NCBI RefSeq assembly: GCF_024704835.1
Contig: NZ_JAMXBE010000009.1
Span: 50,257 to 114,256 of the forward strand
DNA: 64,000 bases
Source: Parapedobacter tibetensis
GTDB lineage: Bacteria; Bacteroidota; Bacteroidia; Sphingobacteriales; Sphingobacteriaceae
Direction: 5' to 3'
Made by a program: the position numbers and the translations under genes. How positions within the stretch are numbered: the stretch's first letter is position 1; the number at the start of each line of letters is the position of its first letter. Positions 16,675-62,749 of the stretch are shown here, in pieces. Under the pieces are notes generated by a model that was not told where the DNA came from, searched no databases, and saw only the letters and a list, made by a program, of their open reading frames with translations.

Positions 16675-21164
<4,490 letters not shown>

Positions 21165-21167
21165 TTT

Positions 21168-21250: not shown

Positions 21251-21253
21251 AAT

Positions 21254-23554: not shown

Positions 23555-23639
23555 TCGTAACTAATTATTATGAGTGTATGTGTATTCAATGGCAGGTTTC
23601 ATCTGGCCTCATCCGTACCGTTCTTTAATCATTTGCCTG

Positions 23640-24791: not shown

Positions 24792-24873
24792 GGTTATCTG
24801 ATTAGTTAATACAATTGATTTTTCATCTGTATATAATTATTCGTTGGTGTTCATTTTCAGTGGTACTCATGAG

Positions 24874-24889
24874 CCCGCCAGCTGGCGGG
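24874..24889. terminator. GC-rich palindrome in the gap upstream of the propeller gene
   Basis: CCCGCCAGCTGGCGGG is a perfect 16-base palindrome, followed on the + strand by G and a run of mostly T (24890-24900). As a terminator it would stop + strand (antisense) transcripts, yet both neighbours are on the - strand. On the - strand it could act as an RNA hairpin in the 171-base gap. It may also be a dispersed palindromic repeat. Confidence 0.5.
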
Positions 24890-24962
24890 GTTTGTTTTTT
24901 AAAGGTGATGAAGCTATCATGATTTATTCATTTCACTGTGTGATTGGCAAATCATGATGGTT

Positions 24963-29348: not shown

Positions 29349-29675
29349 TCTGCGTTAAATTTGGATTGAGTTCGATCTCCCGGCTTGGGATCGGATACCA
29401 TATTTTATAGTCTTGGAAATTCGCCCTGAGTTCGGGTACGTTCTGTATGTTCGCTCCGCATACATCAATACGATATCGGCATACCTGATGACACCAAAAT
29501 CCGTTTCGCCCGCCCAGTTGGGTATGCCTCTTGAGGTTTCGGGGATGATCACCGTCACGTTCGGCAACGGCGCCCCGCCATCACGGTCGGTAACTGTCCC
29601 CCCGATGGTCTGCTGTCCGTACGCCATCGGTGCCCAACAGCAAAAACAAAGTAAAATAAGGTGCAATTTATTCAT
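29329..29675 (-). pseudogene. Collapsed susC/susD relic
   Basis: The fragment starts as a SusC protein: signal peptide (MNKLHLILLCFCCWAPMAYG) and the first strands of the regulatory domain (TIGGTVTDRDGGAPLPNVTVI). Within about 10 residues it turns into the middle of a SusD protein (TDFGVIRYADIVLMYAE). Near 29450 the frame shifts, and another frame carries a perfect SusD tail (WYPIPSREIELNPNLTQNDGY then TN and a TAG at 29329). So two deletions removed nearly all of a susC-susD pair. The relic occupies the place a susCD pair would have at the head of the GH97-propeller-FAD-symporter genes and overlaps the GH97 start by 20 bases. Confidence 0.88.
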
Positions 29676-29691
29676 AGTTGATCTTCTTTTA

Positions 29692-31668: not shown

Positions 31669-31674
31669 TACGAA

Positions 31675-33468: not shown

Positions 33469-33473
33469 TTCGA

Positions 33474-34622: not shown

Positions 34623-34642
34623 CGTGTTTATTCCTTTATCGC

Positions 34643-36337: not shown

Positions 36338-36353
36338 GTTTTCAGTTTTAGAG

Positions 36354-39300
36354 TCAAAAAGTAAAGTCAATTCCAAAAGTATAGGTGGAAGTGACCGGGT
36401 ACATTGCGCCGGTAGTTCCGTTGGGAGCATCAGGGTCTATGCCGGTGGGCATGTCGTCGAACGTGAACAAATTCTGGCCAGAAAAATACAGCCTTACCCG
36501 GTCAGCGAATATATTGTCCAGCACCTTTCCGGGAAGCGTATAGCCCACCGTAAGATTGCGCAGCCTCAGATAAGAGGCATCCCAGACCCAGAAGTCGGAG
36601 GTCTCAAAATTATTATGGCTGGTAGTCGCCACTAACCTCGGATACGCGGCGTCGGGGTTGTCGGGTGTCCAGTAATCGAGGTGCCATTGCTGGACATTTC
36701 CAAAATTCTGAAAGGCCCACACGGCATCTCCCCTCAGAAACACATCCCTTTTGCCTACTCCCTGCAGGAAAGCCGAAACATCAAAGCCTTTAAACCCGGC
36801 AAATAGCCTGAATCCGTAGCTAAATCGGGGAAAGGGATTACCGATAAGCACCCTGTCTTCCGAATTGATGAGCTCATCGGCTGCATCTGCTACTCCGTCG
36901 CCATCGGCATCAATGGTCAATTGGTTTTCATACCTGATATCTCCGGGCGCAAGGACTCCGATCTGAACGGGGGCGCGCTCAACTTCTCCTTGATCCTGAA
37001 AAAAGCCCACAGACCGATAGCCATATATTGAATTGATCGGGTCTCCTTCGCGATTAATACTAAATCCATCAATATAAGGGCCCGTTCCCACTAAGTCAAT
37101 CACTTTGTTGCGCACGTCAGAGACATTAAAATCGGCCGAGTAGGTGAATTCTCCGATCTTATCCTTCCATCCTAGCGAAAGGTCCCAGCCCGTATTTCGT
37201 ACCTTGCCAGCATTCTGGAAAGGCGGATTCAGGCCAATGGTAGATGGAATGGGAAGCTCCAGCAAAATGTCAAAAGTATTGCGGACGTAATATTCAGCGC
37301 TCATGTTCAGCCTGCCAGACAGCATGGACATATCTATGCCTATATTGCTGGTTTCGGTAGTTTCCCAGCTGACCTCCCGGTTAGCCAGCTGGGTCTGGGC
37401 AGCTCCGCTTGCCGGCTTTCCGCCAAAGATAAAATCATTACCTAGGTCTACTGTAGAGGCAAAAGGATAGTTTCCAATATTCTGGTTACCCATTCTTCCC
37501 CAGGAACCCCGCAGCTTCAGATCGTCAATAAAGCTTACTGAAGCAAAAAAAGGCTCTTCGGACACCCTCCATCCCACTGAAAACGAAGGAAATGTTCCGT
37601 ATTTTCTCCCCTCATCAAACCTAGATGATCCGTCCCTTCGCACATTGGCTTCAAACAAATACCTACCCTTGTAATTATAATTGAGACGTGCGAAATAAGA
37701 CTGTAGGCCCCATTCGCTGGCCGACCCATCATTCTGCATATTTTCCTTTGAGCCAACCTCCAACTGCGGGTAATCCTGGAGGGGGAAATTGTCCCTAAAA
37801 GCCTCGAACCAATTGGTATGGTTCGTGATCAGTTCATAGCCCATCAAACCCTTTACGTAATGATCGCCGGAATTCCTTTCATACTCTGCCAGGACGTTCA
37901 CATTATTAGAGAAAACACGATCGTTTTTTTCCAGCAGGGAATTAATGGAAGGTATCGTGTACTCAAGCTCTTTGGTGTCAAAATTAAAAACCTGGTACTG
38001 TCGAGTAAAATGCTTTCTATAGCTATCACTGTACTCGGGTGCGTACATTACTGACAGCTTCAGGCCCTCAAGAGGTTTGTAGTAAGCCCTCAGCACTCCT
38101 CTGGCAGTATTCCGTAGGGTCTGGTTAAATCCGCCATCATTGATCGTGGCTACCGCGTTCCCTCCGCTCATACCCGGCCCCCAGGATCCATCGGAATAAC
38201 GGGCGGCAAAAATGGAAGGTGTCCGATAAGCCGCCCTTAAAACGTTTGCCAGTTCGGCAGAAGGCTGATCCTGAATGGAACGGCGAGCGCTGAAGTCGAG
38301 GTTGAAGCCAACTTTTTCTGAAACAGTGATATCAGTATTGATCCTTGTTTCGTAACGTTTGGCTCCATACGCTTTTACATTTCCGTTCTGATCCATATAG
38401 CCTAGGGAACCCAAGACCCTGATCTTTTCAGTCCCTCCGGTAAGGCTCAGATAATGACTTTGCTGAAAACCGCTTTCGCTGAAAACTTCATCCAGCCAGT
38501 CGGTATCCGGATAATGATCGGGATCGGTATCCTTCCCGGCACGGTATTCATCGAGGTATTCCTGGGAATACAATGGGTCCTGCCCCATGTTCTGCCGAGC
38601 TAGGTTATAATTGACCATGTAACCATAGCCATCGAGGTAATCAGGAAGATCCGTAGGTTTTTGCCAACCCCCGTACGCATTGTAATTGACCTTGAATCCC
38701 CCAGCAGTTCCCCGTTTGGTGGTCACAAGAATCACTCCGTTTGCCGCGCGCGAACCGTAAATGGCCGCGGCAGAGGCATCTTTCAATACGCTAATACTTT
38801 CGATATCCCTAGGGTTTACTCCGTCCATGGATCCCTGAATACCGTCGATCAACACCAAGGGATTGGTTTTATTTCTGGTGCTTGTATTATCTTTACCAAC
38901 TGTGCCAATACCCCGGATCGTGAGATCGGAATCATCCGCTCCCGGCTGACCCGAGCTCTGGACGGCAGTTAGACCCGGTACTACCCCCGTGAGTGCGGCA
39001 GAAGCCCTGAGTACTGGCTGCCGGGCTATGTCTTCTCCCTTTACGGTCTCCACCGAGCCGGTTACATTTACCTCTCGCTGAGTGCCGTACCCGACTACCA
39101 CCACCTCGTCCAACAGCTCATCTTTTTCCGACATGGTAATGGAAAGCTTCGTTTCCCCGGCTTTCAACACGGCGTCAATCGGCTCATATCCAACCAAAGA
39201 AAAGTGTAAAGTTAGCGTATCGCCTACTACTTCTAGCTGGTACTTGCCACTTCCGTCTGTTTTCGCCAACCGTTTCCCATCTGAGGCGGAAATGGTAACC

Positions 39301-39431
39301 CCCGGTAATGGCTGGCTTGTAAAAGCATCTGTAACAACACCGTTTACGACCCGCTTTTCCTGCGCAATCACCGATCCCATCCAGATGGTCCCGAATAATA
39401 ATAACATTAAGAATGGTTTACTCATGGTCAT
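36354..39431 (-). CDS. SusC/RagA-family TonB-linked outer-membrane transporter
   Basis: The start at 39431 (MTMSKPFLMLLLFGTIWMG; a second ATG is at 39425) gives a signal peptide ending at IAQ and 1025 residues. The frame extends upstream into the operator region, which cannot be coding. Order: regulatory-like domain (VVNGVVTDAFTSQPLPGVTIS), TonB box (DEVVVVGYGTQREVNVTGSV), plug (LTGVVPGLTAVQSSGQPG, IESISVLKDASAAAIYGSRAANGV) and barrel ending IDFTF. The first gene of the operon, it lies about 50 bases downstream of a well-defined promoter at 39487-39518 with operator sites on both sides. Confidence 0.94.
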   Translation of the reverse strand: MTMSKPFLMLLLFGTIWMGSVIAQEKRVVNGVVTDAFTSQPLPGVTISASDGKRLAKTDGSGKYQLEVVGDTLTLHFSLVGYEPIDAVLKAGETKLSITMSEKDELLDEVVVVGYGTQREVNVTGSVETVKGEDIARQPVLRASAALTGVVPGLTAVQSSGQPGADDSDLTIRGIGTVGKDNTSTRNKTNPLVLIDGIQGSMDGVNPRDIESISVLKDASAAAIYGSRAANGVILVTTKRGTAGGFKVNYNAYGGWQKPTDLPDYLDGYGYMVNYNLARQNMGQDPLYSQEYLDEYRAGKDTDPDHYPDTDWLDEVFSESGFQQSHYLSLTGGTEKIRVLGSLGYMDQNGNVKAYGAKRYETRINTDITVSEKVGFNLDFSARRSIQDQPSAELANVLRAAYRTPSIFAARYSDGSWGPGMSGGNAVATINDGGFNQTLRNTARGVLRAYYKPLEGLKLSVMYAPEYSDSYRKHFTRQYQVFNFDTKELEYTIPSINSLLEKNDRVFSNNVNVLAEYERNSGDHYVKGLMGYELITNHTNWFEAFRDNFPLQDYPQLEVGSKENMQNDGSASEWGLQSYFARLNYNYKGRYLFEANVRRDGSSRFDEGRKYGTFPSFSVGWRVSEEPFFASVSFIDDLKLRGSWGRMGNQNIGNYPFASTVDLGNDFIFGGKPASGAAQTQLANREVSWETTETSNIGIDMSMLSGRLNMSAEYYVRNTFDILLELPIPSTIGLNPPFQNAGKVRNTGWDLSLGWKDKIGEFTYSADFNVSDVRNKVIDLVGTGPYIDGFSINREGDPINSIYGYRSVGFFQDQGEVERAPVQIGVLAPGDIRYENQLTIDADGDGVADAADELINSEDRVLIGNPFPRFSYGFRLFAGFKGFDVSAFLQGVGKRDVFLRGDAVWAFQNFGNVQQWHLDYWTPDNPDAAYPRLVATTSHNNFETSDFWVWDASYLRLRNLTVGYTLPGKVLDNIFADRVRLYFSGQNLFTFDDMPTGIDPDAPNGTTGAMYPVTSTYTFGIDFTF

Positions 39432-39450: not shown

Positions 39451-39481
39451 ATTGGTATGGTCTGGTCTGGTATTAAAACCA
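39451..39481. promoter_or_regulatory. Operator at the start of the susC operon (pentamer array plus palindrome)
   Basis: On the + strand four 5-base units follow in tandem: TTGGT, ATGGT, CTGGT, CTGGT (39452-39471). The last unit begins a palindrome TGGT-N6-ACCA (39468-39481). A 44-base block including the -7 box (39451-39494) is repeated with six mismatches at 50486-50529. The palindrome would sit at the transcription start, the place of a repressor site. The GntR-type regulator at 50682 is the likely protein. Confidence 0.75.
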
Positions 39482-39486
39482 CAATG

Positions 39487-39518
39487 CAAGTATAGCTCAT
39501 TCTTACATTTGCACCAAA
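39487..39518 (-). promoter_or_regulatory. Promoter of the susC-susD-FMN-FAD-GH9 operon
   Basis: On the - strand TTTG (39515-39518) and TATACTTG (39487-39494) are separated by 20 bases, the usual spacing in this phylum; the -7 box differs from TAnnTTTG at one base. The same -7 box and a TTTG at 21 bases occur at 50522-50554 before the GH16 operon. Confidence 0.7.
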
Positions 39519-39586
39519 TAAAAATTAAAAAATAAAGGCAATTAGCTAATTTTTAACCCCATAAATGTTATCGGGTCAAAAACAAA

Positions 39587-39603
39587 GCTGGTTTGGTTTG
39601 ATC
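39587..39603. promoter_or_regulatory. Upstream operator copy
   Basis: GCTGGTTTGGTTTGATC is identical to 50624-50640 and is preceded at both places by AAACAAA. It is built of the same NTGGT units as the downstream operator (CTGGT, TTGGT, TTGAT). It lies 93 bases from the -7 block, against 95 at the other locus, suggesting paired sites that may loop. Confidence 0.7.
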
Positions 39604-39689
39604 GTATTCTTCTCTACGAGTTCTATAAATTTTCCATTTGCCTCGATCCATGCAAACCCCATCTTAACACTTCACTTCAAACACTGGCG

Positions 39690-40518
39690 TCAATGCAATT
39701 CCAACCCCTCCACTTCCCGCACATCGTCACCTCTTATTTCCTCATATCTGCGTTTCATTTCCTGCAACTTCTCGGGCATCACCTCCGCAGGGTTGTTTTG
39801 TTCGCCAAGGTCTTCAGCCAGGTGATACAGCTGATGAGTTCGGGCGTTACCCAGTTCGATGTTCACCTGTTTGGCGACAGCCGGACCTGGATAGGGAGGT
39901 ATCATCACCCAATCCCCCCTGTCTTAAGATCGTCCGTGAGGCACCCTCCAGCACCAATGCCTCCCGGCCTTGTTCACTTTCTCCCAGAAACGTGTCCAGA
40001 AAGTCCTCACTGTCCGTTCCTTCAACCTGCTGTCCGGTCAGTTTTGCCAAAGAAGCCAGCAAATCGATCTGGCATACGACCGCATCCGACACGTTGGGCC
40101 GGATTCGTCCCTTCCAGTCGATATACCCCGTGCCCAACCCCAAATGCCCTTTGCCAACGATACCGGTATGGTAGCCCGCCTGCTTCAATACTTTGGGAAA
40201 GGTCTGCTGTGCCGTATCGATCAGCAATGGTGCCGTACCAGGAAGGATTTTTGCATCCTTATTGCGCCAGGGATAAATACCTGTCATCAGGGCAAACCGG
40301 CTCGGTGTACAGGTCGAAGAGGTGACGTATCCATTGGTGAAACGGATGCCTTCATGGGCAAGCCGATCCATGTGGGGGGTAGGAATAGCTTGTGCACCGT
40401 AAGCGCCTACATCTCCATAGCCCAGATCGTCCATGTTGATGATAACAATATTGGGAAAACCCTTCCTTGTTACCTGCTGTCCATACCCTCTCCATACCAT
40501 CATCATGGTGGCCACCAA
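39690..40518 (-). pseudogene. Broken sulfatase with internal deletion and frameshift
   Basis: The fragment starts as an S1-family sulfatase: FPNIVIINMDDLGYGDVGAYG and the formylglycine site CTPSR (C70-R74) in TSSTCTPSRFALMTG. After GHLGLGTGYIDWKGRIRPN (about residue 142, near 40092) it jumps in frame to VSDAVVCQIDLLASLAKLTG, which in intact sulfatases lies some 200 residues later, so the middle with metal and substrate ligands is gone. A second lesion follows: an extra base in a run of six C at 39914-39919 shifts the frame. Reading past it restores QGDWVMIPPYPGP and a normal tail to a TGA at 39690. It is last in the GH16 operon, 13 bases after the GH2 gene. Confidence 0.88.
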
Positions 40519-40531
40519 GCTTCCATCGTAT

Positions 40532-43117
40532 TTATTCTACCTTGTTGCTTTTCACCTTTTCCCAGGGCGACCATTGGCTTTCCATGCCATTCAGTTCTTC
40601 CCTGATCCTAACCTCATAGCCGGTTGGATTCCCTATCCTGATTTTAGCGGAACCTTCGAGCTCCGTAACAACTTCACGGATACCTCGTGTACTCCCGATA
40701 GGCCGGTACTGTATCCGGTAATGACTATCTTTTGATTGTACACTATACCCTACTGCGATGCCGTCGTCTACTTGCATTGCAGCCCTAATCAACGGCGGCA
40801 AAAATGCACCAGAAAAGGTGATATCGAGCGTTAACGGACTGCTTTTCCCTACGTCATTTACCGTGTATACATTCACCTGGCTTTGGGAATCGAGCCCATT
40901 TCTGGGGATATCGATCCAATGTGCTTGGGTGTTGAGTGCATCCCCTGAATGGAGTTCGACAAACATAGTTGTCTTGGGCAAGGGGGGATTGACGAATAGC
41001 CTCACAGCCGTATCGCTCATCAAGGAAGACACGACCTCCGGTTTTTCAGGTTTTTTAGCATACAAGATTTGCTCGTACACCGTATGGCCCGTTGGATTAA
41101 CCAGTCTTACCGATGCGTAAGCGAACTTACCTTCCACGTTCTTCGGATAGGAAAATACATGCGACACAACCGCATCACCCGGAGCAATATCAGGCAATCC
41201 AATCGAGTCTTTGTGACGGATCTGATTGTTCTTATCGTGTAAAGCGATATGAAGTCGATACCCCCTTATGACGTAATTAGGAATGGCGTTTTCTCCCTTC
41301 GGACGGATCCTGACTGGCAGCGTTCGCTTCTTTCCTTCCAATCCTACATCCCACCCCGCAATCGGGGCAAATGCCGCTTGTATCTGATCGGCGGCTTTTT
41401 TGGGCCTTCGCCATACGTCAACGACCCCCCACGTGCGGTCGCCTCCAAGCGGCGTCCCGTGATAGTTACTTCGGTAATCGTTGTAAGTCCACAACGAAGC
41501 GCCCGCAACATATGGCAATTCAGCAATTTTATTAAACCGATCCAAAACGATCGTGCGTAATGTATCGTCAACTTGAGGGCCGATTTGGCCCTGTCCGAAT
41601 TCCGTCAACAAGATCACCTTCTCAGGCCAACGGTCGTGAATGCGCTTGGCGGCCTGTACAAAATCGCCGTAGTTGTTGAAGCATACGATATCGGCGGCAT
41701 CCGCAGGCTCCATATCCGGTGTGATGCCCTCCCTAAACGCCGTTAGGCTCACATAGGTCACCAACCGGCTCGTATCGAGTTGTTCTCTTACATACCGCAT
41801 CATCGATTTGATGTAGTTGTATTGCTCCCTGCTCATCCGCATGTTTTGCCAATCATTGAGATCTAATACCAGTTCGTTGGAAACGCTCCAGGCCATAACC
41901 GAAGGGTGGTTATAGTCCCGTTCAATCATCTCCTTGAGCCATTGCTTTGTTAATGGATTGTTTTCAAAAGCCTGGGGGTCCTCCCGTCCCCAAACCGGTA
42001 TTTCCTGAATGATGAGCATCCCTATTTTATCAGCATAAGCCAACAATTCAGGGGACAAGGGGGCATGCATCATGCGTGTCATGTTACAGCCGAGGCGCTT
42101 CATGTGGTCCAAATCCTGTTTGATCAGCCAGAAGGGCTCGGTATTTCCAACGGCTCGATGATCATGGACACGATTAAAGCCAGCTAATCGAACCGATTCG
42201 CCATTTAGGAGCAATTGTTGGTTTTTTACTTCGATGGTTCGGAAACCCAACGTCGAACGTCTACGATGCAAGGTCCTACCGTTTTCGTGGATGACCACCT
42301 CGCACGCATAAAGATGCGGGTGATCGAAATGCCACAGCTTTATGGTATCCGGCAATTTCAGGGATATCTCCTGTTTTTCCGATTTCTCCGTATCAACGAA
42401 TATCGTGTAGGCGGTGTCGGCAACGGCAGTGCGGTAATCCGAATCCCCATACACGCTGATCTCCACCGTTAGCTCACGGGCATTACGCGCAATATTTTCA
42501 ACGCTATACGTCATATATACCTCAGCCATTTTGGTTTGTAGGTCCACATGAGGGGTTATCAGTAATCGGTTGACTCGAACGTCTTCATACTTGACCAAAG
42601 CGACGTTTCGACTAATCCCCCCCCACGCCCACCAAGCTCCCCTGTTGTACCGATTGTCGACCACCACCGCGATCGTATTGCTTTCGCCCGCTTTCAGCAA
42701 ATCTTCAACCCGAAATTCAAAGGGGGTATATCCCCCTTTGTGGCTACCCACATAATGGCCGTTTATATAAATGTATGCCGTTTCGTATACCGCTTCGAAA
42801 TGTACTCGCACCACCGCCCCCTTCCAAGATGCTGGCACGGCGATTTCCCTGCGGTACATTCCTAATCCTTTGTATTGTGCATATTCCATTTCCGTATCCC
42901 AATTACCGGGAACCGTCAAAGAGCCGCTCGTGTACCATACTGTATCGGGATGCGCGAGCGGAGCGGCCTCCGCCAACGTTTCGATAGTCCGAAACGCCCA
43001 ACGGCCATTTAGTGATAGGTGTTCCGCCCCGGCTCCTTCATTTTCTGCATAAACAGCGGTTATGGTTGCTACAAAAGACCACGCTATAAAAATCTGTTTG
43101 CATATAGCACTCCTCAT
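40532..43117 (-). CDS. GH2-family glycoside hydrolase
   Basis: The start at 43117 (MRSAICKQIFIAWSFVATIT) gives a signal peptide ending near AVYA and 861 residues; the longer frame runs into a relic of another gene and is rejected. The three N-terminal GH2 domains are clear: jelly-roll (LSLNGRWAFR, VPGNWD, RREIAVPASWKG), Ig-like, and TIM barrel. The acid/base is E415 in MAWSVSNELVLD and the nucleophile E506 in VILLTEFGQG. After the barrel come about 200 residues of C-terminal beta domains. GH2 enzymes remove beta-linked galactose, mannose or glucuronic acid; the specificity is not readable here. The enzyme is periplasmic, in the GH16-susCD operon. Confidence 0.92.
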   Translation of the reverse strand: MRSAICKQIFIAWSFVATITAVYAENEGAGAEHLSLNGRWAFRTIETLAEAAPLAHPDTVWYTSGSLTVPGNWDTEMEYAQYKGLGMYRREIAVPASWKGAVVRVHFEAVYETAYIYINGHYVGSHKGGYTPFEFRVEDLLKAGESNTIAVVVDNRYNRGAWWAWGGISRNVALVKYEDVRVNRLLITPHVDLQTKMAEVYMTYSVENIARNARELTVEISVYGDSDYRTAVADTAYTIFVDTEKSEKQEISLKLPDTIKLWHFDHPHLYACEVVIHENGRTLHRRRSTLGFRTIEVKNQQLLLNGESVRLAGFNRVHDHRAVGNTEPFWLIKQDLDHMKRLGCNMTRMMHAPLSPELLAYADKIGMLIIQEIPVWGREDPQAFENNPLTKQWLKEMIERDYNHPSVMAWSVSNELVLDLNDWQNMRMSREQYNYIKSMMRYVREQLDTSRLVTYVSLTAFREGITPDMEPADAADIVCFNNYGDFVQAAKRIHDRWPEKVILLTEFGQGQIGPQVDDTLRTIVLDRFNKIAELPYVAGASLWTYNDYRSNYHGTPLGGDRTWGVVDVWRRPKKAADQIQAAFAPIAGWDVGLEGKKRTLPVRIRPKGENAIPNYVIRGYRLHIALHDKNNQIRHKDSIGLPDIAPGDAVVSHVFSYPKNVEGKFAYASVRLVNPTGHTVYEQILYAKKPEKPEVVSSLMSDTAVRLFVNPPLPKTTMFVELHSGDALNTQAHWIDIPRNGLDSQSQVNVYTVNDVGKSSPLTLDITFSGAFLPPLIRAAMQVDDGIAVGYSVQSKDSHYRIQYRPIGSTRGIREVVTELEGSAKIRIGNPTGYEVRIREELNGMESQWSPWEKVKSNKVE

Positions 43118-43143
43118 ATTATTATCTTTTGATTTTTGCACTT

Positions 43144-43336
43144 CTATTTTGCCTGACTGGTCTGCATACCCAGCCAAAGCGGTCCGGATGCCGTTTTGTT
43201 GCCCTCCAAATCTTCTACTTCCAATTCGAATCGCAGCTCCTTTCTGTCCCCATCAACCGGTATGGTAAATTTGAGCGAGGGTATTAATACTGCCAATAAA
43301 AAGAAACCGTGTAATTAGTGACGCGTATTTTATCAT
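43144..43336 (-). pseudogene. Relic of a six-hairpin family gene (both ends kept, middle deleted)
   Basis: An ATG at 43336 overlaps the susD stop as ATGA and opens a 27-codon frame, MIKYASLITRFLFIGSINTLAQ then IYHTG and stop, which is a signal peptide. In another frame the next 45 codons read KFTIPVDGDRKELRF, then LEVEDLEGNKTASG and end at a TAG (43144-43146). This matches the last residues of the protein at 51756-54521 (EFTIRLDKRQHGLQF then LEVEDINGNVKRSQ). So a translationally coupled gene once stood here, and about 850 codons are lost. The GH2 start lies 26 bases further on. Confidence 0.82.
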
Positions 43337-44958
43337 TCGGAAATCCCCCTATTAGCGTCCAACTCCACCTTAGGGATTGGCCATTGGTAAGGCTTAGATG
43401 CATCAAACGAGCGAGAAAGCACAGCATAAACCTCATATTCCATGTTGCTCACATACGGTGAAAGCTTACCTGGCCTAAATCCACGCAAGTCCTGGTAAGC
43501 TTCCTCGCCGACTTCCCAGCGCATCACATCAAATATCCGTAAGCCTTCGAATGCAAACTCCACCCGCCTTTCATGCCGGATTACGTCGATTAGTGCTTCC
43601 GGAGAAAGTCCAACGCCTTCCACATCTTCTACTTTGGGCATCGCAACACTTTCACGCTGGCGTACTTGGTTGATGAGGTCATATACCTCTGCTTCGTTAT
43701 ATCCACCTTGTTCTACTAAAGCTTCCGCTTCCATCAGCAATACATCCGCATAACGGATAACGATAGGATTGACCCCCGAGACATTATTGACCCCATTGTC
43801 CGTATAGTCCACGTATTTACGCACACGGAAACTCGTGAAATTTGCCGAAGCTTGTTGCGAAGGGTAATACACGATGGGGTCTCCGTTCGTTAGGTTATAA
43901 TCACGGATGGAATAAGGCACGACGATTGAATAATGCAAGCGCGGATCCCGGTTCTGGAAACGGTTGTCATAACCTCCCTCTTTGATATAATTGGAGGGTG
44001 CAGCAATGCCGGTCGGCCTAATCGTCGGATCATACATTGTATTATCCGGGTCAACGATGGATAAGCCATTGGTGGAATAAAACTGCTCATATAGATCATA
44101 TGACACCTGATAGCCACTCCACGAGCGGAACCGTGTATACCAAATGGTTGATAACTCGAATTGCGCCGTATGCTGTTCGAATTGCATGTCAAAGATTACC
44201 TCCTTATTGTCAGCCTCGCCTTCAGGCAGGAATAGTAGTCGGTATTCAGGCATGATTTCGTATACTCCCAACTCCCTTACTTTCTTGCAGTAATCCACTG
44301 CCTCTTCATAGCGGTGGTTGAATAGCAGCGTGCGAGCTTTTATAGCGAGCGCCGCCCCCTTTGTTGCCCGTCCTCTATTGTCAGCTGCATACTTGGGTGG
44401 CAAAAGCTCGGCAGCCGTTTCCAGATCGGCCAGCACCATTTCCACCACCTCTTCTTTCGGCGATAGTGGCTTGTCCGCTTCATCCAAGCCCTCCGGCTTT
44501 AACCGCAACGGAACATCCCCAAAGAAAAACGACAGGTCAAAGTATGCCAGCGCACGTAAAAAAAATGCTTCACCCTTAAACTGGTTGTAACTTGTCTCCG
44601 ACATCTCCACTTCATCGATATAATGCAGCACGGTATTGGCCCGCAGGATAACGCTGTAATTGCGCGACCATTTATTGACTACTAAGGCCGCCTCATTATT
44701 GAAGTTCCGTGTCCATAACAATTGGTAGTCAACGTAATACCCATTGTCTACAATAAAATCCGTGTAAATCGGTTCATTACGATCCGAAATAAAGGCCTTA
44801 TAAATGCCATTTACGGCCTCGCGGACATCGCGCTCTGTATTGAAATTATCCGGCGACAGAAAATCGATCGGTTTACGATCAAGAAATTCATCATCGCAAG
44901 CCGAACCAACGAATAGCAAGCTGGCAAACACACACAATTTAAAACATTTCGTAATCAT
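43333..44958 (-). CDS. SusD/RagB-family glycan-binding lipoprotein
   Basis: The start at 44958 (MITKCFKLCVFASLLFVGSAC) gives a lipoprotein signal and 541 residues; the upstream frame lies inside susC. Family features: CDDEFLDRKPIDFLSPDNF, AFFLRALAYFDLSFFFGDVP, KGAALAIKARTLLF, PIVIRYADVLLMEAEALVEQ, IRHERRVEFAFEGLRIFDVMRWEVG and WPIPKVELDANRGISE. It ends a few residues short of the usual NPGY tail, right where the relic gene starts. It is closely similar to the SusD at 57886-59481. Its susC partner ends 4 bases upstream. The two would capture and import products of the GH16 enzyme. Confidence 0.93.
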   Translation of the reverse strand: MITKCFKLCVFASLLFVGSACDDEFLDRKPIDFLSPDNFNTERDVREAVNGIYKAFISDRNEPIYTDFIVDNGYYVDYQLLWTRNFNNEAALVVNKWSRNYSVILRANTVLHYIDEVEMSETSYNQFKGEAFFLRALAYFDLSFFFGDVPLRLKPEGLDEADKPLSPKEEVVEMVLADLETAAELLPPKYAADNRGRATKGAALAIKARTLLFNHRYEEAVDYCKKVRELGVYEIMPEYRLLFLPEGEADNKEVIFDMQFEQHTAQFELSTIWYTRFRSWSGYQVSYDLYEQFYSTNGLSIVDPDNTMYDPTIRPTGIAAPSNYIKEGGYDNRFQNRDPRLHYSIVVPYSIRDYNLTNGDPIVYYPSQQASANFTSFRVRKYVDYTDNGVNNVSGVNPIVIRYADVLLMEAEALVEQGGYNEAEVYDLINQVRQRESVAMPKVEDVEGVGLSPEALIDVIRHERRVEFAFEGLRIFDVMRWEVGEEAYQDLRGFRPGKLSPYVSNMEYEVYAVLSRSFDASKPYQWPIPKVELDANRGISE

Positions 44959-44962
44959 AAGT

Positions 44963-47900
44963 CTAAAAATTAAGGTTGAAACCAAAAGAAAAACTGGCAA
45001 TCTGCGGGTGGAATGCTGCTGTGACACTGTTATAGCTCCGTTCCGGATCAAATCCCTCTACAAAAGGCGTAACTAGCAGGAGGTTCTCTGCATTCACGAA
45101 CACCCGGCAGCGGTTCACTTTATAGCGTTGCACAAAAGCAATGGGCAATTCGTAACCCAGTTGTACACTTTTCAAACGGAAAAATGAAGCATTGTAAATA
45201 TTATAGCTGGTTACCAAGGCATCCCGTGTCTTGTCTACATATATCCGCTGGTAACGGTCGGACGGGTTTTCAAATGTCCATCTCTTATCCACCATTTCCG
45301 TTCGTATCGGGCCGTTCGTATTAAAAAACGGAGCAATCAATTTGCCATTCATGTACGCATCCGCCCCACTCACACCATGTCCGATGATGTTCAAACTGAA
45401 CTGCTTATAGGAAAGATCTGCGCTGAACCCATATTGCCATTTGGGCAATGGATTTCCGATCAGCACACGATCGCCGGGTGTTACGGCACCGTTCCCGTCG
45501 GTGTCTGCCAGTTTGATATCTCCCGGAGCCGGTGAATCCATTAAGCTCGATTGGTCAGGGTACCCGTCTTTCAGCACATAGGTCCGTTCGGTATGCGGGA
45601 TAGAAGGATCGCTATTTTCTTGCCAGGTAAAGTCAGACACCTGATAAACCCCTTCCATGCGGTATCCGTAGAACGATGAAAACGGATGGCCTACGACACT
45701 CCTTATGTTGGCGGTATGGTCAATAAAGGGCAGACCGCCGAGATCGGTCAGCTCATTGGTGAGGTAGGTTAAATTCGCTGCAATCGCGTAGTTCAACCGA
45801 TCTTTGTGTGGCGTAGACCTATAGCCCAAGTTGATTTCGATTCCTTTATTGATCATCGTACCCACATTCTGATACGGCAACGAGCTTACCCCCAATGAGG
45901 GCGGGATTGTAACCCGGGCCAAAATATCAAATGTTTTTTTGGTAAAAAAATCAGCCTCCAAGTTGAACCGGTTCCACAACACGAGGTCAAGCCCTACGTT
46001 GGTTTGTTCGGTCGTTTCCCACCTTGTCGCTTGGTTGGCCAACAACGTTGTCCCGCGGCCCGGAACGATGACGTTTCCGAACGCATAATACTCCTGACCA
46101 CTCATCTGGTCTGCAAATGCATACTGCGACCAGATATTCTGGTTACCCAAGCGGCCCCACGAGGCTCTCAGTTTCAGGTTCAGGAAATCCCATTGCTTCA
46201 GGAAAGGCTCTTCACTGATTCGCCATCCGGCGGAAACCGATGGGAAGTTACCCCAACGGTTTGCTTTTGAAAAACGGGATGAACCGTCCCTCCGAAAATT
46301 CACTTCCAGCAAGTACTTGTCAGCGAACACATAGTTGAATCTGCCGAAATACGACGAGGTAGCAAACTCATAAGCCAAACTATTGAGGTAAAGGGTATTT
46401 GGATCACCATAGTTAAAAATCGGGGCATTGCTGGATAATTCCAAAACAGAGCCGTCGTCACGTTTGTAGATCGTTTCTAGTTTTTCATGTGCTGCAAAAA
46501 ACTGCATGTCGTGCTTTCCGGCGGTCAACCCGTAATCCAGGGATAACAAAAACGTATTCTGGTCCCGTTTCAAAAACCGCTTTTCCAATGAAGACTGCCT
46601 TTTGTTGGTCGAGCTTTCCAAAAAATCACCGGCAGTATAAAATTCCGGAGAAAAATTCACGTATTCGTCTCCATATTTATTGTTTGACAGCAACAGTTTT
46701 CCCACAAGGTTTTTCACCGGCTCCAATTCCACCGAAGCACGGGTGTTGAGGTTATTCGCCATTGAATTTATTCCTCCCCCCAGCTCCCTCGCCGCAAGAA
46801 ACCGAGCATTATAGCCATAGAGGTTCTCATTACCTGTGAGTGTGTCGATAGACCGTATGAAAGCAGCGGGTGACATGCCCGCAATCTCCGACATGACGGA
46901 GTTGGTCGCTGAGGTAAGTTCATCCACACGTTCCCGGTATCCAACAGCACCCAACCCCAATCGAAGTTTATTGTTAAAAAACGAACCTGACAAATTGCTA
47001 TTGAATGAAATCCGATTTGCACCCGTTCCGATCAACACTCCCTGTTGGTCTTTATATGCCACGGAGTTTGAGAATCGGTAGTTCTTATTTCCCCCACGCA
47101 GCGCGATATAGTGATTTTGCATCTGCCCCTGCTTGAAATAGGTATCATACCAGTCTGTGCTGGGATATCTGGAATCGGTTTGGTTCCGATACAATTCGAC
47201 TACGGCATCACTATAAACTGGAGGCTGACCCACATTTTGGCGGGCCTCATTAATCAGTCGCGCATACGTATAAGAATCCACGGTTTCAGGCAATCGGGTC
47301 GCATTGCTTACGGAGAGCGTACCGTTGTAGTCGAGCTTCAACCCATCCCCGTCAGCAGCACCGCGTTTTGTTTCAATTACAATTACCCCAGCAGACGCGC
47401 GTGAACCATAAATAGCGGCGGAAGCAGCATCTTTCAACACGGAAACCGAAGCGATGTCATTCGGACTCACATCATTCAGGTTAGCCTGCACACCATCTAC
47501 AATTACTAACGGTTCGTTATTGTTGTCTATGGAGGAGACACCACGTATTCGGATTTCAGACATATCGTCGCCGGGCCTGCCCGAGTTCTGTACAATACCC
47601 ACGCCAGCAGCCTTCCCCTGGAGCAGTTGGTCGACGCTCGTTAGCGCCCTACCCTCCACTTCATCTACCTCCACGGAGGCAACGGCACCGGTTAGGTTGG
47701 CCTTTTTCTGCGTACCGTATCCAACCACGATGGCTTCTTCTAGCCCAATTACATCCTGCTTTAGGATAATATCAAGGTGTGTATCGTTGGTTACTGGAAC
47801 AGTTTGAGACATATACGATATGCTCGAAAACTGCACTTGCATGGTTTTCTCCGAAATGACCAACGAAAATTCGCCTTTTTCATTGGTGCGTGTAGCGGCT

Positions 47901-48043
47901 GTACCGTCATCCGGCATTACATTTACGCCAGCGACCGGCTCTCCGGCCTCATCAAGTACAGTACCGGTGAGCTTTCGCGATTGCGCCCAAGTGTAATTTG
48001 TGACCACACAAAGCGCTAATAGTACAATAAACGTTAATCTCAT
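44963..48043 (-). CDS. SusC/RagA-family TonB-linked outer-membrane transporter
   Basis: This 1026-residue transporter has a signal peptide (1-20, ending WAQ), the regulatory-like domain (LTGTVLDEAGEPVAGVNV), a TonB box (EEAIVVGYGTQKKANLTGAV), a plug with LLQGKAAGVGIVQNSGRPG, RIRGVSSIDNNNEPLVIVDG and ASVSVLKDAASAAIYGSRASAGV, and a barrel ending GFNLNF. It is a close paralogue of the SusC at 59502-62696, sharing the SSIDNNN and PNDIAS stretches, which the other two SusC proteins lack. It follows the GH16 gene after 45 bases. Confidence 0.94.
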   Translation of the reverse strand: MRLTFIVLLALCVVTNYTWAQSRKLTGTVLDEAGEPVAGVNVMPDDGTAATRTNEKGEFSLVISEKTMQVQFSSISYMSQTVPVTNDTHLDIILKQDVIGLEEAIVVGYGTQKKANLTGAVASVEVDEVEGRALTSVDQLLQGKAAGVGIVQNSGRPGDDMSEIRIRGVSSIDNNNEPLVIVDGVQANLNDVSPNDIASVSVLKDAASAAIYGSRASAGVIVIETKRGAADGDGLKLDYNGTLSVSNATRLPETVDSYTYARLINEARQNVGQPPVYSDAVVELYRNQTDSRYPSTDWYDTYFKQGQMQNHYIALRGGNKNYRFSNSVAYKDQQGVLIGTGANRISFNSNLSGSFFNNKLRLGLGAVGYRERVDELTSATNSVMSEIAGMSPAAFIRSIDTLTGNENLYGYNARFLAARELGGGINSMANNLNTRASVELEPVKNLVGKLLLSNNKYGDEYVNFSPEFYTAGDFLESSTNKRQSSLEKRFLKRDQNTFLLSLDYGLTAGKHDMQFFAAHEKLETIYKRDDGSVLELSSNAPIFNYGDPNTLYLNSLAYEFATSSYFGRFNYVFADKYLLEVNFRRDGSSRFSKANRWGNFPSVSAGWRISEEPFLKQWDFLNLKLRASWGRLGNQNIWSQYAFADQMSGQEYYAFGNVIVPGRGTTLLANQATRWETTEQTNVGLDLVLWNRFNLEADFFTKKTFDILARVTIPPSLGVSSLPYQNVGTMINKGIEINLGYRSTPHKDRLNYAIAANLTYLTNELTDLGGLPFIDHTANIRSVVGHPFSSFYGYRMEGVYQVSDFTWQENSDPSIPHTERTYVLKDGYPDQSSLMDSPAPGDIKLADTDGNGAVTPGDRVLIGNPLPKWQYGFSADLSYKQFSLNIIGHGVSGADAYMNGKLIAPFFNTNGPIRTEMVDKRWTFENPSDRYQRIYVDKTRDALVTSYNIYNASFFRLKSVQLGYELPIAFVQRYKVNRCRVFVNAENLLLVTPFVEGFDPERSYNSVTAAFHPQIASFSFGFNLNF

Positions 48044-48088
48044 TTGTTCATCATTTAATAGTCATTATAATTGGTTCGCTCAAAATGA

Positions 48089-50419
48089 TTACTCAGTTGG
48101 TGCCAATGCCACTCCTCTGAATAATGTAAACGGTGGTGCCGAGGCAATTACCACTGGCGTTGCCGATAATGTGGTATTGTATCCTCCGCCGTCAACTATC
48201 TTCACCAATTCTCCCCCTCCGTTTACCGATCCCGCATTTTTCCGTGTCGCGAACAATTCTACTGCACCGGTTCCAACCCTTCCGGCAAGGCCCCGATATT
48301 GGTCGGCTGACGTACCGACTTGTCCATTTAATGTCCATGAACCACCCACTAGCGAATACTTGGACAAGGCACCGCTCCATTCATCTGCCACATACAGGAC
48401 GTCAACCCCGAGTACCATATCTGAAAGGTCCGCTAGAAAAATACCATAGGGGCTCCCTTGGTCATTGGGTATCCCCGGCAGGTTAGCCATCACCTGTCCC
48501 GAGGTGGTCGGAAGCCCGGTTCCTACTGTTGCTACCCGGAATCCGGTGGCCGTGGATGAGGCATACAGCTGATTACCAAAAATCGTTAGACACCTTCCCG
48601 TTGAAGATACGAGCGTGTGTGACGCCGTGTTTCCTGTGGCAACATACCGGATACCATTACCCCCGCCCGTTACCCAAATTTTGCTGCCATCATCTGTAAC
48701 CGCTGAGCGAACCGCAACGTTTCCAAAAGCAGGCAATGCCGTCGTCGTATTGACCTGTCCACGGTCACCGACCAATGCGACCACCCTGTTCACCACATTG
48801 CCTGCAGTTGCCACCACATTACTATAACCCGGTGCGGCATCGTAACCCGCCAATGCCAGGTATTTTCCGTTGGCCGACCGCGACAAGTAGCCTTCAGTTT
48901 GGTCTGTTGCCGATACCGATAGCGTCAGGCGCTTACTTGCTCCAGATACCGAAACCGGCATCGGGATGGAACGCACCAAGGTACCCTCGTTCGTATATTC
49001 CTCCAGAAAAACGGGATGCGCTGCCCCAAGCACCAACTGCCCGGCGCCATTACCTATGCGGACTACCACCAGGTTTCCCTCGCCGAAAGGCTGCAGCCCG
49101 AGGAAGTTGTCGTCATGCACTACATTGCTGACTCCGCCTATCCGTTCGGGTGTAAACGCCGTATCGGTGGTGAGCAAAATCTTGTCGCACCGGGCGTGGT
49201 ATTGCGAGCTATCGAACACATCCAATATATTCACGCCTTCGTTAAGATAAAACACCCCTCCAGCTTGCCAGTCATATCCATGGGTCCCATGTGTACCAAA
49301 CGTCGTGGCAGATTCCACTCCATTCACCAGTACTTTAAACTGCCGCGTACCCGGAGCCGTGTTAAAGTCCCGTGACCGTACCCATAGCCGGTAATTGCCG
49401 GCGCTGTTGATGACAATCCCCGTCCGCGCTGTCAACGCAGCAGAGTCGCGGCCTGAATCGAAACTGGTGAACCCTTTGACCACCAAAGCATTGTCGAGAT
49501 CCCGTTCGATATTCCAATTGTTAGTATGAATAAAATCCTCAGCTTCTATCCAAAGATCCGTTCCATTTGAGTGCTGCGGGCCACGAATCGAATCCAGGTA
49601 ATTGATAAACGGTACCTTACGGATTTCATATTCCGCTGATGAAATCTCATAAGCCCTGATGTAATCAAAATACATCGTTCCCGAGTTTGTAGCATCCGGT
49701 TTTGTCGCGATACAGGTCAACCAAGCATAGAAATCGTGCTGGGGCACATCGCGCATATCGATTGTTTTGAGCAGTTCGCCCTCAAAATAATAATTTAAGT
49801 AGTCCGGCGTATATTCAAAACCATAGGTGTGATAGTCGGCCGCAAGGTCTTGTGTCGTCGTCACGTAATCCCTGTTTACACTCCCTTGGTAAGGCCCCCA
49901 TTCTATAGCGCCGTAAGTAAATTTAAACGCATCATAATCACCATAATGCTCAAAACAATCAATTTCCAACCTACGTCCCCCCTCGTCGGTCAATGGGTTA
50001 GGGTCGCCAAATCCGCTGCTACCGGTCGTCCAGAACGCCTCATGCCAGCCATATCCTCCATCCATTTTAGCACGCACTTCATAATACCCATATCCATTCG
50101 GGATATTGGTAATTATCCCCCCGCCGGTCAGGTTTTGCCCCATATACTCTTCGCATTTCAGCGAAATCACCAGCTTGCCGCTATCCAAAGAAACATTTTC
50201 AGGTCGCTGATAGCTCTCTTGACTTACCCCGATCCGATACTTCCATCGAATCGTATCAAGAGACAAGGAATCAAACTCATCAGCCCATGTGTGTGCATAC
50301 CCCGGAATTGGCGCCACCGCTGCCATCAATCCATCTGTTCCAGCGAACCGATCCAATACCTTCTTATTACAACCGAGGGCTAAGGACGAAATTAAAAGAA
50401 TGTAAATAATTGGTCTCAT
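48089..50419 (-). CDS. Surface GH16 endo-glycanase lipoprotein with binding module and beta-propeller
   Basis: This 776-residue lipoprotein has a signal ending LALGC (C17). Residues about 38-260 are a GH16 domain: HTWADEFDSLSLDTIRWKY, GYYEVRAKMD and the catalytic motif LEIDCFEHYG with E152 as nucleophile and E157 as acid/base (beta-bulge EIDxxE type, as in laminarinases, agarases and relatives). Residues about 285-425 form a carbohydrate-binding-like beta-sandwich (LWIEAEDF, YRLWVRSRDF, RCDKILLTTDTAFTPE) shared with the FAD protein at 31675. Residues 430-776 look like a beta-propeller. As the first gene of the operon and a lipoprotein, it probably makes the first cut at the cell surface. The substrate is a beta-glucan or galactan by family. 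Confidence 0.88.
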   Translation of the reverse strand: MRPIIYILLISSLALGCNKKVLDRFAGTDGLMAAVAPIPGYAHTWADEFDSLSLDTIRWKYRIGVSQESYQRPENVSLDSGKLVISLKCEEYMGQNLTGGGIITNIPNGYGYYEVRAKMDGGYGWHEAFWTTGSSGFGDPNPLTDEGGRRLEIDCFEHYGDYDAFKFTYGAIEWGPYQGSVNRDYVTTTQDLAADYHTYGFEYTPDYLNYYFEGELLKTIDMRDVPQHDFYAWLTCIATKPDATNSGTMYFDYIRAYEISSAEYEIRKVPFINYLDSIRGPQHSNGTDLWIEAEDFIHTNNWNIERDLDNALVVKGFTSFDSGRDSAALTARTGIVINSAGNYRLWVRSRDFNTAPGTRQFKVLVNGVESATTFGTHGTHGYDWQAGGVFYLNEGVNILDVFDSSQYHARCDKILLTTDTAFTPERIGGVSNVVHDDNFLGLQPFGEGNLVVVRIGNGAGQLVLGAAHPVFLEEYTNEGTLVRSIPMPVSVSGASKRLTLSVSATDQTEGYLSRSANGKYLALAGYDAAPGYSNVVATAGNVVNRVVALVGDRGQVNTTTALPAFGNVAVRSAVTDDGSKIWVTGGGNGIRYVATGNTASHTLVSSTGRCLTIFGNQLYASSTATGFRVATVGTGLPTTSGQVMANLPGIPNDQGSPYGIFLADLSDMVLGVDVLYVADEWSGALSKYSLVGGSWTLNGQVGTSADQYRGLAGRVGTGAVELFATRKNAGSVNGGGELVKIVDGGGYNTTLSATPVVIASAPPFTLFRGVALAPTE

Positions 50420-50485
50420 AATTATTAAGTATATTTGATTATTTCCTTTGCGTCGATAAGCAGAAAACTATTCAATATGTTTATT

Positions 50486-50516
50486 ATTGGTATGGTCTGG
50501 TCTGGTAAGTAAACCA
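50486..50516. promoter_or_regulatory. Operator at the start of the GH16-susCD operon
   Basis: The + strand has TTGGT, ATGGT, CTGGT, CTGGT in tandem (50487-50506) and a TGGT-N6-ACCA palindrome (50503-50516). With the -7 box the 44-base block is nearly identical to 39451-39494. It lies at the predicted transcription start, about 70 bases before the GH16 start codon. Confidence 0.75.
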
Positions 50517-50521
50517 CGGTG

Positions 50522-50554
50522 CAAGTATAAATGATTTTAAACATTCAATCCAAA
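50522..50554 (-). promoter_or_regulatory. Promoter of the GH16-susC-susD-GH2 operon
   Basis: On the - strand TTTG (50551-50554) is followed after 21 bases by TATACTTG (50522-50529). The -7 box and its downstream flank are the same as at 39487-39494, while the spacer and upstream sequence differ, which points to selection on the elements rather than recent duplication. Confidence 0.7.
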
Positions 50555-50623
50555 TTATTTTTGAAATAGTTACCCAACACATTGATTTTAAGTTAAAAAC
50601 AAATCATATCTAAAAAACAAATG

Positions 50624-50640
50624 GCTGGTTTGGTTTGATC
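50624..50640. promoter_or_regulatory. Upstream operator overlapping the regulator promoter
   Basis: GCTGGTTTGGTTTGATC, identical to 39587-39603, covers the -33 box (TTTG at 50629-50632) of the promoter of the GntR-type gene. Binding here would block that promoter, which suggests autorepression, while being 95 bases upstream of the GH16 operon block. Confidence 0.7.
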
Positions 50641-50659
50641 CAGTAAATTATTACTTTTG
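50629..50659 (+). promoter_or_regulatory. Promoter of the GntR-type regulator gene
   Basis: TTTG (50629-50632), 19 bases, then TACTTTTG (50652-50659) is a perfect match to the TTTG-N19-TAnnTTTG consensus of the phylum. Transcription would begin about 15 bases before the ATG at 50682, which supports that start. Confidence 0.75.
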
Positions 50660-50681: not shown

Positions 50682-51719
50682 ATGACAAGTCTTAAAAATT
50701 TGATTCCAAAGGCAAAAATTAACGACACTAATACAGGTAACCGCATGAAATACCTGCAATTGGTTGATTATATCAATGCACTTATCGAGTCCGACCAACT
50801 GCACATCGGAGACCGACTCCCTTCGCTCAAGCAACTGGAAAAACAGTTGGGCATGAGTAAGGAAACCCTACTCAAAGGATTGAACTACTTATCGGAAAAG
50901 GGCATCATCGAGTCCGTCTACCGCAAGGGTTATTACGTAAGAAAGAAGTCGGTGAGCCACACCTACCGCGTATTCCTCCTGCTAGACAAGTTGAACGTGA
51001 TGCGTGACAAATTATATCATACATTGTTCGACCAGCTTAAGGATGTAGCCGATGTGGACGTATACTTCCACCATCATAATTTCAAGGTCTTCGAAAACCT
51101 CATCCGTGAAAATCTCAATGGATACACCCATTTCGTAATCACCACATTCCTCAAGGAAGACCCTGCGGAAGTTTTAAATCTTATCCCCGCGCAAAAGCGC
51201 ATTATTATTGATTACAACCAAACCGGTTTGGATGGTGATTACGCTTGTATATACCAGGATTTCGAACACGACATCTATGATGGCCTAACCCAGCTAAAAA
51301 ACCAGCTATCTAAATACAAAAAACTTGTCCTCATCGCTCCTACTGAAGCGACACATGCCCGCCATGTAGTGGAAGGCTTCTTGCGGTTTTGCATGGAACA
51401 TGAATACCCCTATGCCATTCAACATGAGGTCGGGGCCGGTAATTTTAAAAAGGGCAATACCTACATCACCTTCAGCAGGTATGATACGGATGACGTGGCG
51501 CTTATCAAACTAGCAAGATCGAAAGGCTACAGATTAGGCAAGGATATTGGCCTTATCTCCTATAATGATACGGCCGTGAAGGAAATTTTAGAAGATGGCA
51601 TCACTGTCATTTCCACCGACTTTGAAGCAATGGCCAAATCGGTGAGCAAAGCGATTATCGGTAAGGAAACCGTCGTGGTCCGCAATCCGACACGCGTCAT
51701 TGTGCGCCAATCACTGTGA
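50682..51719 (+). CDS. GntR-family transcriptional regulator with LacI-type sugar-sensing domain
   Basis: This 345-residue protein has a GntR winged-helix domain at about 23-92 (YLQLVDYINALIESDQLHIGDRLPSLKQLEKQLGMSKETLLKGLNYLSEKGIIESVYRKGYYV pattern, described here by its parts IGDRLPS, SKETLLKGL and GIIES) and a periplasmic-binding-protein-like ligand domain at about 95-345 (YRVFLLLDKLN, HFVITTFL, IGLISYNDTAVKEIL, ITVISTDFEAMA). This layout is that of the Bacteroidota GntR sugar regulators such as the fucose repressor FucR. It is divergent from the GH16 operon and sits among operator copies, so it likely represses that operon, the 39-kb operon and itself until its sugar is bound. Confidence 0.92.
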   Translation: MTSLKNLIPKAKINDTNTGNRMKYLQLVDYINALIESDQLHIGDRLPSLKQLEKQLGMSKETLLKGLNYLSEKGIIESVYRKGYYVRKKSVSHTYRVFLLLDKLNVMRDKLYHTLFDQLKDVADVDVYFHHHNFKVFENLIRENLNGYTHFVITTFLKEDPAEVLNLIPAQKRIIIDYNQTGLDGDYACIYQDFEHDIYDGLTQLKNQLSKYKKLVLIAPTEATHARHVVEGFLRFCMEHEYPYAIQHEVGAGNFKKGNTYITFSRYDTDDVALIKLARSKGYRLGKDIGLISYNDTAVKEILEDGITVISTDFEAMAKSVSKAIIGKETVVVRNPTRVIVRQSL

Positions 51720-54521: not shown

Positions 54522-54579
54522 TTTTAATCAACTCAGCGTATACTAACTATTGCCTAAAAATCCTCATCCGCCAATTGGC

Positions 54580-57882: not shown

Positions 57883-57885
57883 CGA

Positions 57886-59481: not shown

Positions 59482-59501
59482 TTCTTTATAATTAAGCGGG
59501 T

Positions 59502-62696: not shown

Positions 62697-62749
62697 AATT
62701 TGTTTTGGTTAAATTGATCTACTATTCACTGATTCGTTGACAAAACGTT

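Follow-up and report, generated by a model that had tools for sequence, protein, structure and literature searches.

In a stretch of 64,000 nucleotides from Parapedobacter tibetensis (RefSeq assembly GCF_024704835.1, contig NZ_JAMXBE010000009.1, positions 50,257 to 114,256; hereafter the window), a gene at 50682..51719 on the plus strand codes for a 345-residue protein with a GntR winged helix-turn-helix and a LacI/RbsR-type sensor domain. We consider it likely that this regulator represses three glycan operons, A, B and C, through an array of TGGT boxes (O1) beside the promoter of each, that a sugar relieves the repression, and that the regulator controls its own gene through a second element (O2). 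The same switch stands before all three clusters and beside the regulator gene, and switch and regulator co-occur in relatives; one regulator therefore probably controls all three operons. The original prediction for this DNA had one regulator coupling the operon at 19.5-39.4 kb (A) to the GH16 operon (B). Exact elements shared by the two operons and the co-occurrence with orthologues of the regulator favor this coupling, in which binding is a prediction, but the targets found are three and not two.

The array at the promoters of three glycan operons

Blocks 39451-39494 and 50486-50529 had been said to match in 38 of 44 positions; the similarity is real, and a recount gives 39. The second, 17-base element, O2, is identical in its two places (39587-39603 and 50624-50640, 17/17), and the reported spacings of 93 and 95 are the coordinate differences between first and second element, that is, 92 and 94 bases lie between them. 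When the two intergenic regions were subjected to 300 mononucleotide shuffles, the best 44-base match did not exceed 28 positions and the best 17-base match 15. The elements had been described as flanking the regulator gene at 50682, but both lie upstream of it.

Throughout the genome (5,982,706 bases), the O1 pattern TGGTNTGGTNTGGTNTGGT was found in three places and CTGGTTTGGTTTG, the core of the 17-base O2, also in three. All six exact matches belong to the modules of operons A and B and to a third module at G000:C85:115336 and 115473, just beyond the end of the window, and each O1 is paired with one O2, at distances of 136, 138 and 138. With three mismatches allowed, the O1 pattern fits 101 places in the genome; besides the three arrays, the best of these is the O2 of operon C, with one mismatch, and the next best has two. 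Given these counts, the array is no general attribute of promoters in this genome, and exact elements are not common away from glycan genes, being confined to the three modules.

On the plus strand, the 44-base block consists of four TGGT boxes at 5-bp steps and, further on, TGCAAGTATA. O1 can be written (TGGTN)4, with all boxes in the same direction and a period of 5. The target operons run on the minus strand, where TGCAAGTATA starts with TATACTTG; this word is a Bacteroidota -7 box that departs from TAnnTTTG at one position, and TTTG lies 20 or 21 bases upstream of it. The Bacteroidota promoter consensus, as given in the cited parts of two reports, is TAnnTTTG with TTTG near -33 (PMC7366714, PMC2483708). 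Because TATACTTG fits the -7 consensus and TTTG stands 20 or 21 bases upstream, the sequence of the block reads as the -7 end of a core promoter, O1 following directly downstream. Moreover, TGCAAGTATA is invariant among six Parapedobacter modules (three of this genome and those of three species).

At operon A, O1 (ATTGGTATGGTCTGGTCTGGTA, 39451..39472, four TGGT boxes at 5-bp steps) is one of the three exact arrays of the genome and scores 31.5 with a position weight matrix (PWM). It lies just downstream of the minus-strand -7 box TATACTTG (39487..39494, one mismatch to the consensus TAnnTTTG as cited from PMC7366714), and the -33 box TTTG (39515..39518, minus strand) is 20 bases from the -7 box. 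At operon B, O1 (50486..50507, PWM score 30.2) adjoins the regulator, the -7 box TATACTTG is at 50522..50529 and the -33 box TTTG, 21 bases from it, at 50551..50554, both on the minus strand. The elements of operon C lie 1.1-1.2 kb outside the window, O1 from G000:C85:115334 on (would-be window coordinate 65078) and O2 from G000:C85:115472 on (65216).

If the usual distance between -7 box and transcription start holds, O1 would fall within the first ~30 transcribed bases of each operon, as might be expected if the array acted in the mRNA leader and not as a DNA operator. We regard such a role as highly improbable. O2, which is the same type of site, is located upstream of the target promoter and is not part of the transcript, the protein that co-occurs with the array is from a DNA-binding family, and the transcribed strand consists of ACCA repeats with, by inspection, little scope for pairing.

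The modules might also be alike through recent copying and not through selection. The core promoters of B and C resemble each other beyond the elements (first 45 spacer bases, none of 500 shuffles as good), and the start of a lost regulator gene is present at C. Similarity in the remaining spacer, however, lies at the random level or close to it for each of the three pairs (equalled by 33, 314 and 240 of 500 shuffles), whereas O1, the -7 box and O2 are nearly identical and account for most of the invariant columns among the six Parapedobacter modules. The view that the sequence between the elements is otherwise different, and the module no fresh copy, is borne out by the spacers of A and B, which align near randomly (16 of 500 shuffles align equally well). 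Recent copying is hence an improbable source of the likeness, and pure duplication is ruled out by the drift of the spacer.

The regulator and its co-occurrence with the array

The presence of a GntR-type regulator gene beside one copy of the elements was confirmed. Residues 24-86 of its product match the GntR winged helix (PF00392, 41.5 bits, cut-off 27), which places it in the GntR family; the label given originally is right for this domain and can be refined, since a LacI/RbsR-type sensor is attached. An AlphaFold 2 model (mean predicted local distance difference test score, pLDDT, 84.8) matched chains of RbsR, CelR and LacI in Foldseek with E values of 1e-11 to 1e-12, so that the C-terminal sensor is predicted to have the LacI/GalR fold, as in AraR-type regulators, and not the all-helical FadR-type fold of NanR-like ones. 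By Pfam alone Peripla_BP_3 is below cut-off (23.9 vs 26.5). At E 0.001, GntR and Peripla_BP_3 are the only Pfam matches, with no sensor of the hybrid two-component system (HTCS) or SusR-like kind among them. YydK is the best solved-structure match by sequence, with AraR and YvoA lower. Two matches of the regulator in a phage collection are faecal records without annotation. The N-terminal stretch is poorly conserved, and the first 20 residues have pLDDT below 50.

Orthologues of the regulator (E 1e-90 or better) are present in 48 of the 399 genomes of the family set. From 79 named loci that were fetched, the 59 at 54% identity or more, together with the window's own, gave 60 upstream regions of up to 450 bases each. 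These were scanned with a 24-bp PWM in a leave-one-genus-out scheme with 50 shuffles per upstream; a small leak arises because the full model had served to locate the training sites. A site scoring above all shuffles of its genus was found in 58 of the 60 orthologue upstreams, each time on the regulator's strand (58/58). The upstreams of 40 more distant homologues (23 and 15 from two homologue sets, and two paralogues of this genome) contained no site of 15 bits or more, the highest reaching 12.2. At 42-48% identity a drifted array is kept in four loci (L141-L144), and L139 has CTGTN repeats (12.5 bits). Apart from this group and from genome G002, the 5-bp periodicity was not seen in the distant homologues examined, as it would be if it were a general trait of GntR/LacI-type regulators in the phylum.

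O1 co-occurs with orthologues of the regulator in Parapedobacter, Olivibacter, Pedobacter, Sphingobacterium, Niabella, Sinomicrobium and other genera. The exact array is present in 25 of the 399 genomes, and 19 of these 25 have an orthologue, against 29 of the 374 array-less genomes (Fisher 9e-15, a value that ignores kinship). These 19 genomes together contain 32 exact arrays, every one of them on the regulator's contig and at most 28 kb away from it, and single genomes carry up to several of them (three in G148, four each in G328 and G424). The search of the genome and of relatives that had been proposed as a check thus gave exact elements nowhere else in the genome and a first element that tracks the orthologues across genera.

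Arrays away from the regulator, seen in seven other genomes, precede genes for SusC, FAD_oxidored, DUF4886/SSF and proteins resembling the window's GH16 protein, and so appear to front mostly relatives of operon A and B genes. Of 57 orthologue loci compared by BLAST with the proteins of the window, 38 have a SusC relative as the nearest divergent frame; this frame is unclassified in 16 and matches another window protein in two, and one locus has no testable frame. In P. soli the neighbor of the regulator is a relative of operon C (SusC 82%); in Sinomicrobium pectinilyticum and, across one intervening frame, in Parapedobacter sp. SGR-10 it is a relative of operon B (L121, L131), and in L116, L124, L142 and L144 operon A-like genes stand beside the regulator (SusC 40-48%, SusD 38-51%). 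At the P. soli locus (L083, ~9.63-9.75 kb), inspection by eye showed a likeness between the stretch from SusC to O1 and the operon C GH31 gene at its C-terminal end, which would fit a deletion of GH31 there.

Another regulator, a paralogue or a global factor, might bind the array, its nearness to the gene being incidental. Two further homologues are encoded in this genome (E 1e-40 or better), and in G002 an array of TGGTG units stands beside a gene for a 31% identical homologue. The paralogues of this genome, however, lack such an array, and arrays follow the orthologues of one gene in many genera, near that gene. A different binding protein therefore seems improbable.

Several observations nevertheless weigh against control of the operons by this regulator through O1. 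The position of O1 relative to the transcription start is deduced from the promoter consensus, and O1 is not palindromic, unlike usual GntR sites; instead of the palindromic operator boxes of AraR-type regulators, the conserved site is a same-direction TGGTN array. The two misses of the PWM scan are Bacteroides orthologues (66% identical) without an array within the 11.1 and 21.0 kb of sequence examined, and the homologue in G045 (47%) is without an array as well. Six of the 25 exact-array genomes lack a close orthologue. Plain (TGGTA)n runs fit the operator pattern in G031:C411, G246:C1 and G393:C4, probably by chance; the array of G397 lies inside a reading frame, and that of G319 precedes an unclassified gene. 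The TGGTG array of G002 (L218:5223-5246), which was outside the 40 controls, lies ~118 bases before the gene for the 31% homologue, divergent from SusC, and may indicate a related regulator group with a variant array. Finally, the O2 word CTGGTTTGGTTTGT occurs in 55 of the 399 genomes, 10 of them with an orthologue (Fisher p 0.18), so that O2 alone is not specific.

In ten Sphingobacterium upstreams (L093, L095-L098, L100, L101 and L103-L105) the array has drifted to TCTGGTCTAGACTGGTTTG, which contains GTCTAGAC. This word, present in the ten Sphingobacterium forms, is a partial palindrome and resembles the center of HutC-type palindromes, hinting at interconversion of palindromic and direct-repeat operators.

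The second element and the promoter of the regulator

O2 of operon B (50624..50640) contains a TTTG (50629-50632) that would be the -33 box of the regulator promoter, and 19 bases after it stands TACTTTTG (50652..50659, plus strand), an exact match to the -7 consensus. Of 30 orthologue loci with TGGTTTGGT close to the start of the regulator, 18 have an exact TAnnTTTG 18-21 bases after the TTTG. Because O2 holds the -33 TTTG of the regulator promoter, and this promoter is exact in 18 of 30 loci, O2 most likely serves autoregulation. O1 and O2 thus appear to be separable, O1 belonging to the target promoter and O2 to that of the regulator. The original prediction of one joint, two-element module holds for the pairing within this genome, but the pair is not indivisible, as O2 was not seen at the regulator-less targets inspected in seven other genomes.

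At operon A, O2 (GCTGGTTTGGTTTGATC, 39587..39603) is followed by no regulator gene and by no -7 box (up to two mismatches, 17-21 bases). At operon C, the sequence behind O2 aligns with the promoter and first codons of the P. soli regulator over 66 bases (83%, E 1e-12), and we conclude from this match that a regulator copy belonging to operon C was probably present there in the past. The relic (L004:2018-2047) lies 1.26 kb past the end of the window and runs for nine codons before a stop; the 11.5 kb examined there contain no other match to the regulator. In the alignment with P. soli, the first 25 bases, including O2, are all identical, followed by 30 of 41 (p 0.005). That O2 is kept intact while its neighbors drift speaks for a use of O2 at A and C.

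Such a use could be looping, with O1 and O2 forming one operator pair between which the repressor loops out the promoter, as AraR or LacI do. The near-constant O1-O2 distance in the three own modules and the identity to P. soli across O2 of operon C are compatible with a loop, as is the O2 of operon A, intact at 17/17 despite a spacer that has drifted to near random. AraR, which has the same domain make-up, is described in the cited part of PMC4218819 as looping between two boxes. Moreover, the distances cluster at a period of 5.0 bp (Rayleigh p 0.009, uncorrected and with close kin included). Over 31 loci, however, the distance varies from 97 to 196 without phasing at periods of 10.0, 10.5, 11.0 or 5.25 bp (p 0.63, 0.62, 0.20 and 0.48), a weak test in view of the 5-bp register uncertainty that the repeats bring. 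Longer intergenic regions also have larger O1-O2 distances (Pearson r 0.48, p 0.007). With the pattern used, 25 of 57 loci have no O2, and no second site was found in the ~215 bases inspected at regulator-less target operons in seven other genomes. Looping as the main model is weakened by the variable spacing and by the O2-less targets elsewhere, and we consider it rather unlikely.

From what is read in the sequence (the array, the promoter boxes, the count of three copies, co-occurrence, proximity and the relic), we infer binding, repression, an inducing sugar and autoregulation as follows. A multimer of the regulator would bind the (TGGTN)4 array just downstream of the -7 box and, so bound, would block RNA polymerase at each of the three operons. 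Repression would be lifted when the LacI/RbsR-type sensor domain binds a sugar set free from the glycans. O2, as a second and shorter site of the O1 kind over the -33 box, would allow the regulator to limit its own expression; it remains at A and C, where no regulator gene now stands, and at C the broken start of one is still readable. We further suggest, tentatively and with somewhat less than even confidence, a distinct form of AraR-type DNA recognition, with dimers wound on both faces of the helix over TGGT half-sites spaced by half a turn, together with operons that kept their operator after loss of their regulator copy, so that one survivor commands three in trans.

Operon content and relation to known systems

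The first gene of operon A (36354..39425, minus strand) codes for a SusC-like TonB-dependent receptor with Plug and CarbopepD_reg_2 domains; its ATG at 39425 was read from the sequence, the mechanical open reading frame extending to 39500. The remaining genes (19503..36430, minus strand) code for SusD, an unknown protein of 410 residues, FAD_oxidored, an unknown protein of 658 residues, a short SusD-like piece, a GH97 fusion of 1461 residues, an unknown protein of 383 residues, FAD_oxidored and an SSF symporter, and we infer that the whole forms one single operon. The 1461-residue protein (24963-29348) is an unusual fusion of a GH97 half and a C-terminal half weakly matching GH88, GH127 and C5-epimerase models. 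The SusD-like fragment (29355-29675, 106 residues) scores 22.8 bits with PF07980, just below the cut-off of 23.1. Operon B (40532..50419, minus strand) consists of genes for GH16 (48089-50419), SusC, SusD and GH2. Between it and the operon A promoter are pieces of an arylsulfatase (39693-40518, minus strand), the N-terminal part recognized by NCBIfam and a C-terminal-like stretch by inspection; they are too short for a complete gene and apparently a remnant. Operon C (51756..64000, minus strand, continuing past the end of the window) codes for an unknown protein of 921 residues, GH106, SusD, SusC and GH31; from its promoter the order is GH31-SusC-SusD-GH106-unknown, with GH31 leading. The proteins of 383, 410, 658 and 921 residues have no Pfam match above cut-off, and GH2, GH16, GH31, GH97, GH106 and the PF12831 oxidoreductases together indicate no single glycan.

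The regulator resembles AraR of Bacillus subtilis (GntR/AraR subfamily), which, in the cited part of PMC4218819, combines a GntR winged helix with a GalR/LacI-type sensor and controls several sugar operons, with a box at its own gene and two boxes at some promoters. In that account the AraR boxes are palindromic and paired boxes have to be in phase, unlike the same-direction TGGT boxes at 5 bp and the variable O1-O2 distance found here. Local control of polysaccharide operons through direct-repeat sites is shared with the HTCS and SusR regulators of Bacteroides thetaiotaomicron; those regulators, however, belong to the hybrid two-component or SusR-like kind, and the spacing of their paired sites is greater, averaging 21 bp for HTCS and amounting to 67 or 77 bp for SusR, to go by the portion of PMC3878776 cited. 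Tandem same-direction operator repeats containing GGT, a NanR-like trait, are present here as four TGGT boxes with a period of 5.

NanR is a FadR-like protein, and the operators of NagQ and GabR were described from other phyla. NanR of Escherichia coli is a GntR-type repressor of which three dimers bind same-direction (GGTATA)3 cooperatively; as far as the part cited goes, its unit is 6 bp, unlike the 5 bp here, and its cooperativity depends on a 32-residue N-terminal extension (PMC8012715), whereas the N-terminal stretch of the present regulator is poorly conserved. Direct-repeat operators of GntR regulators given in the cited part of PMC4494728 are TGGTATT for NagQ, TGGTATAW for NanR and ATACCA for GabR, the last being the complement of TGGTAT. 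The array found here shares the same-direction TGGT-type repeats of NagQ and GabR, but those regulators have HutC- and MocR-subfamily sensors and other repeat lengths.

GntR/LacI chimeras and direct-repeat GntR operators are already known. A full-text search of the open-access literature on the motif gave, judged by titles and the starts of abstracts, no paper on regulation in Bacteroidota; neither it nor a search on GntR regulators of Bacteroidota gave a description of a (TGGTN)4 operator, and the two features combined with a 5-bp array in a multi-operon Bacteroidota glycan regulon were not found in the literature searched. The present system seems to differ from these in the half-turn step of 5 bp, in its LacI-type sensor and in that three glycan operons share it.

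Glycan operons of Bacteroidota are usually seen with their own local switch each. The relic at operon C illustrates concretely how a regulator of a single operon may come to serve several, and a 5-bp same-direction array paired with a GntR protein carrying a LacI-type sensor poses a clear structural question. A recognizable operator that can be read across many genera of Bacteroidota would predict which operons are switched together and guide the search for the inducing sugar that they share.

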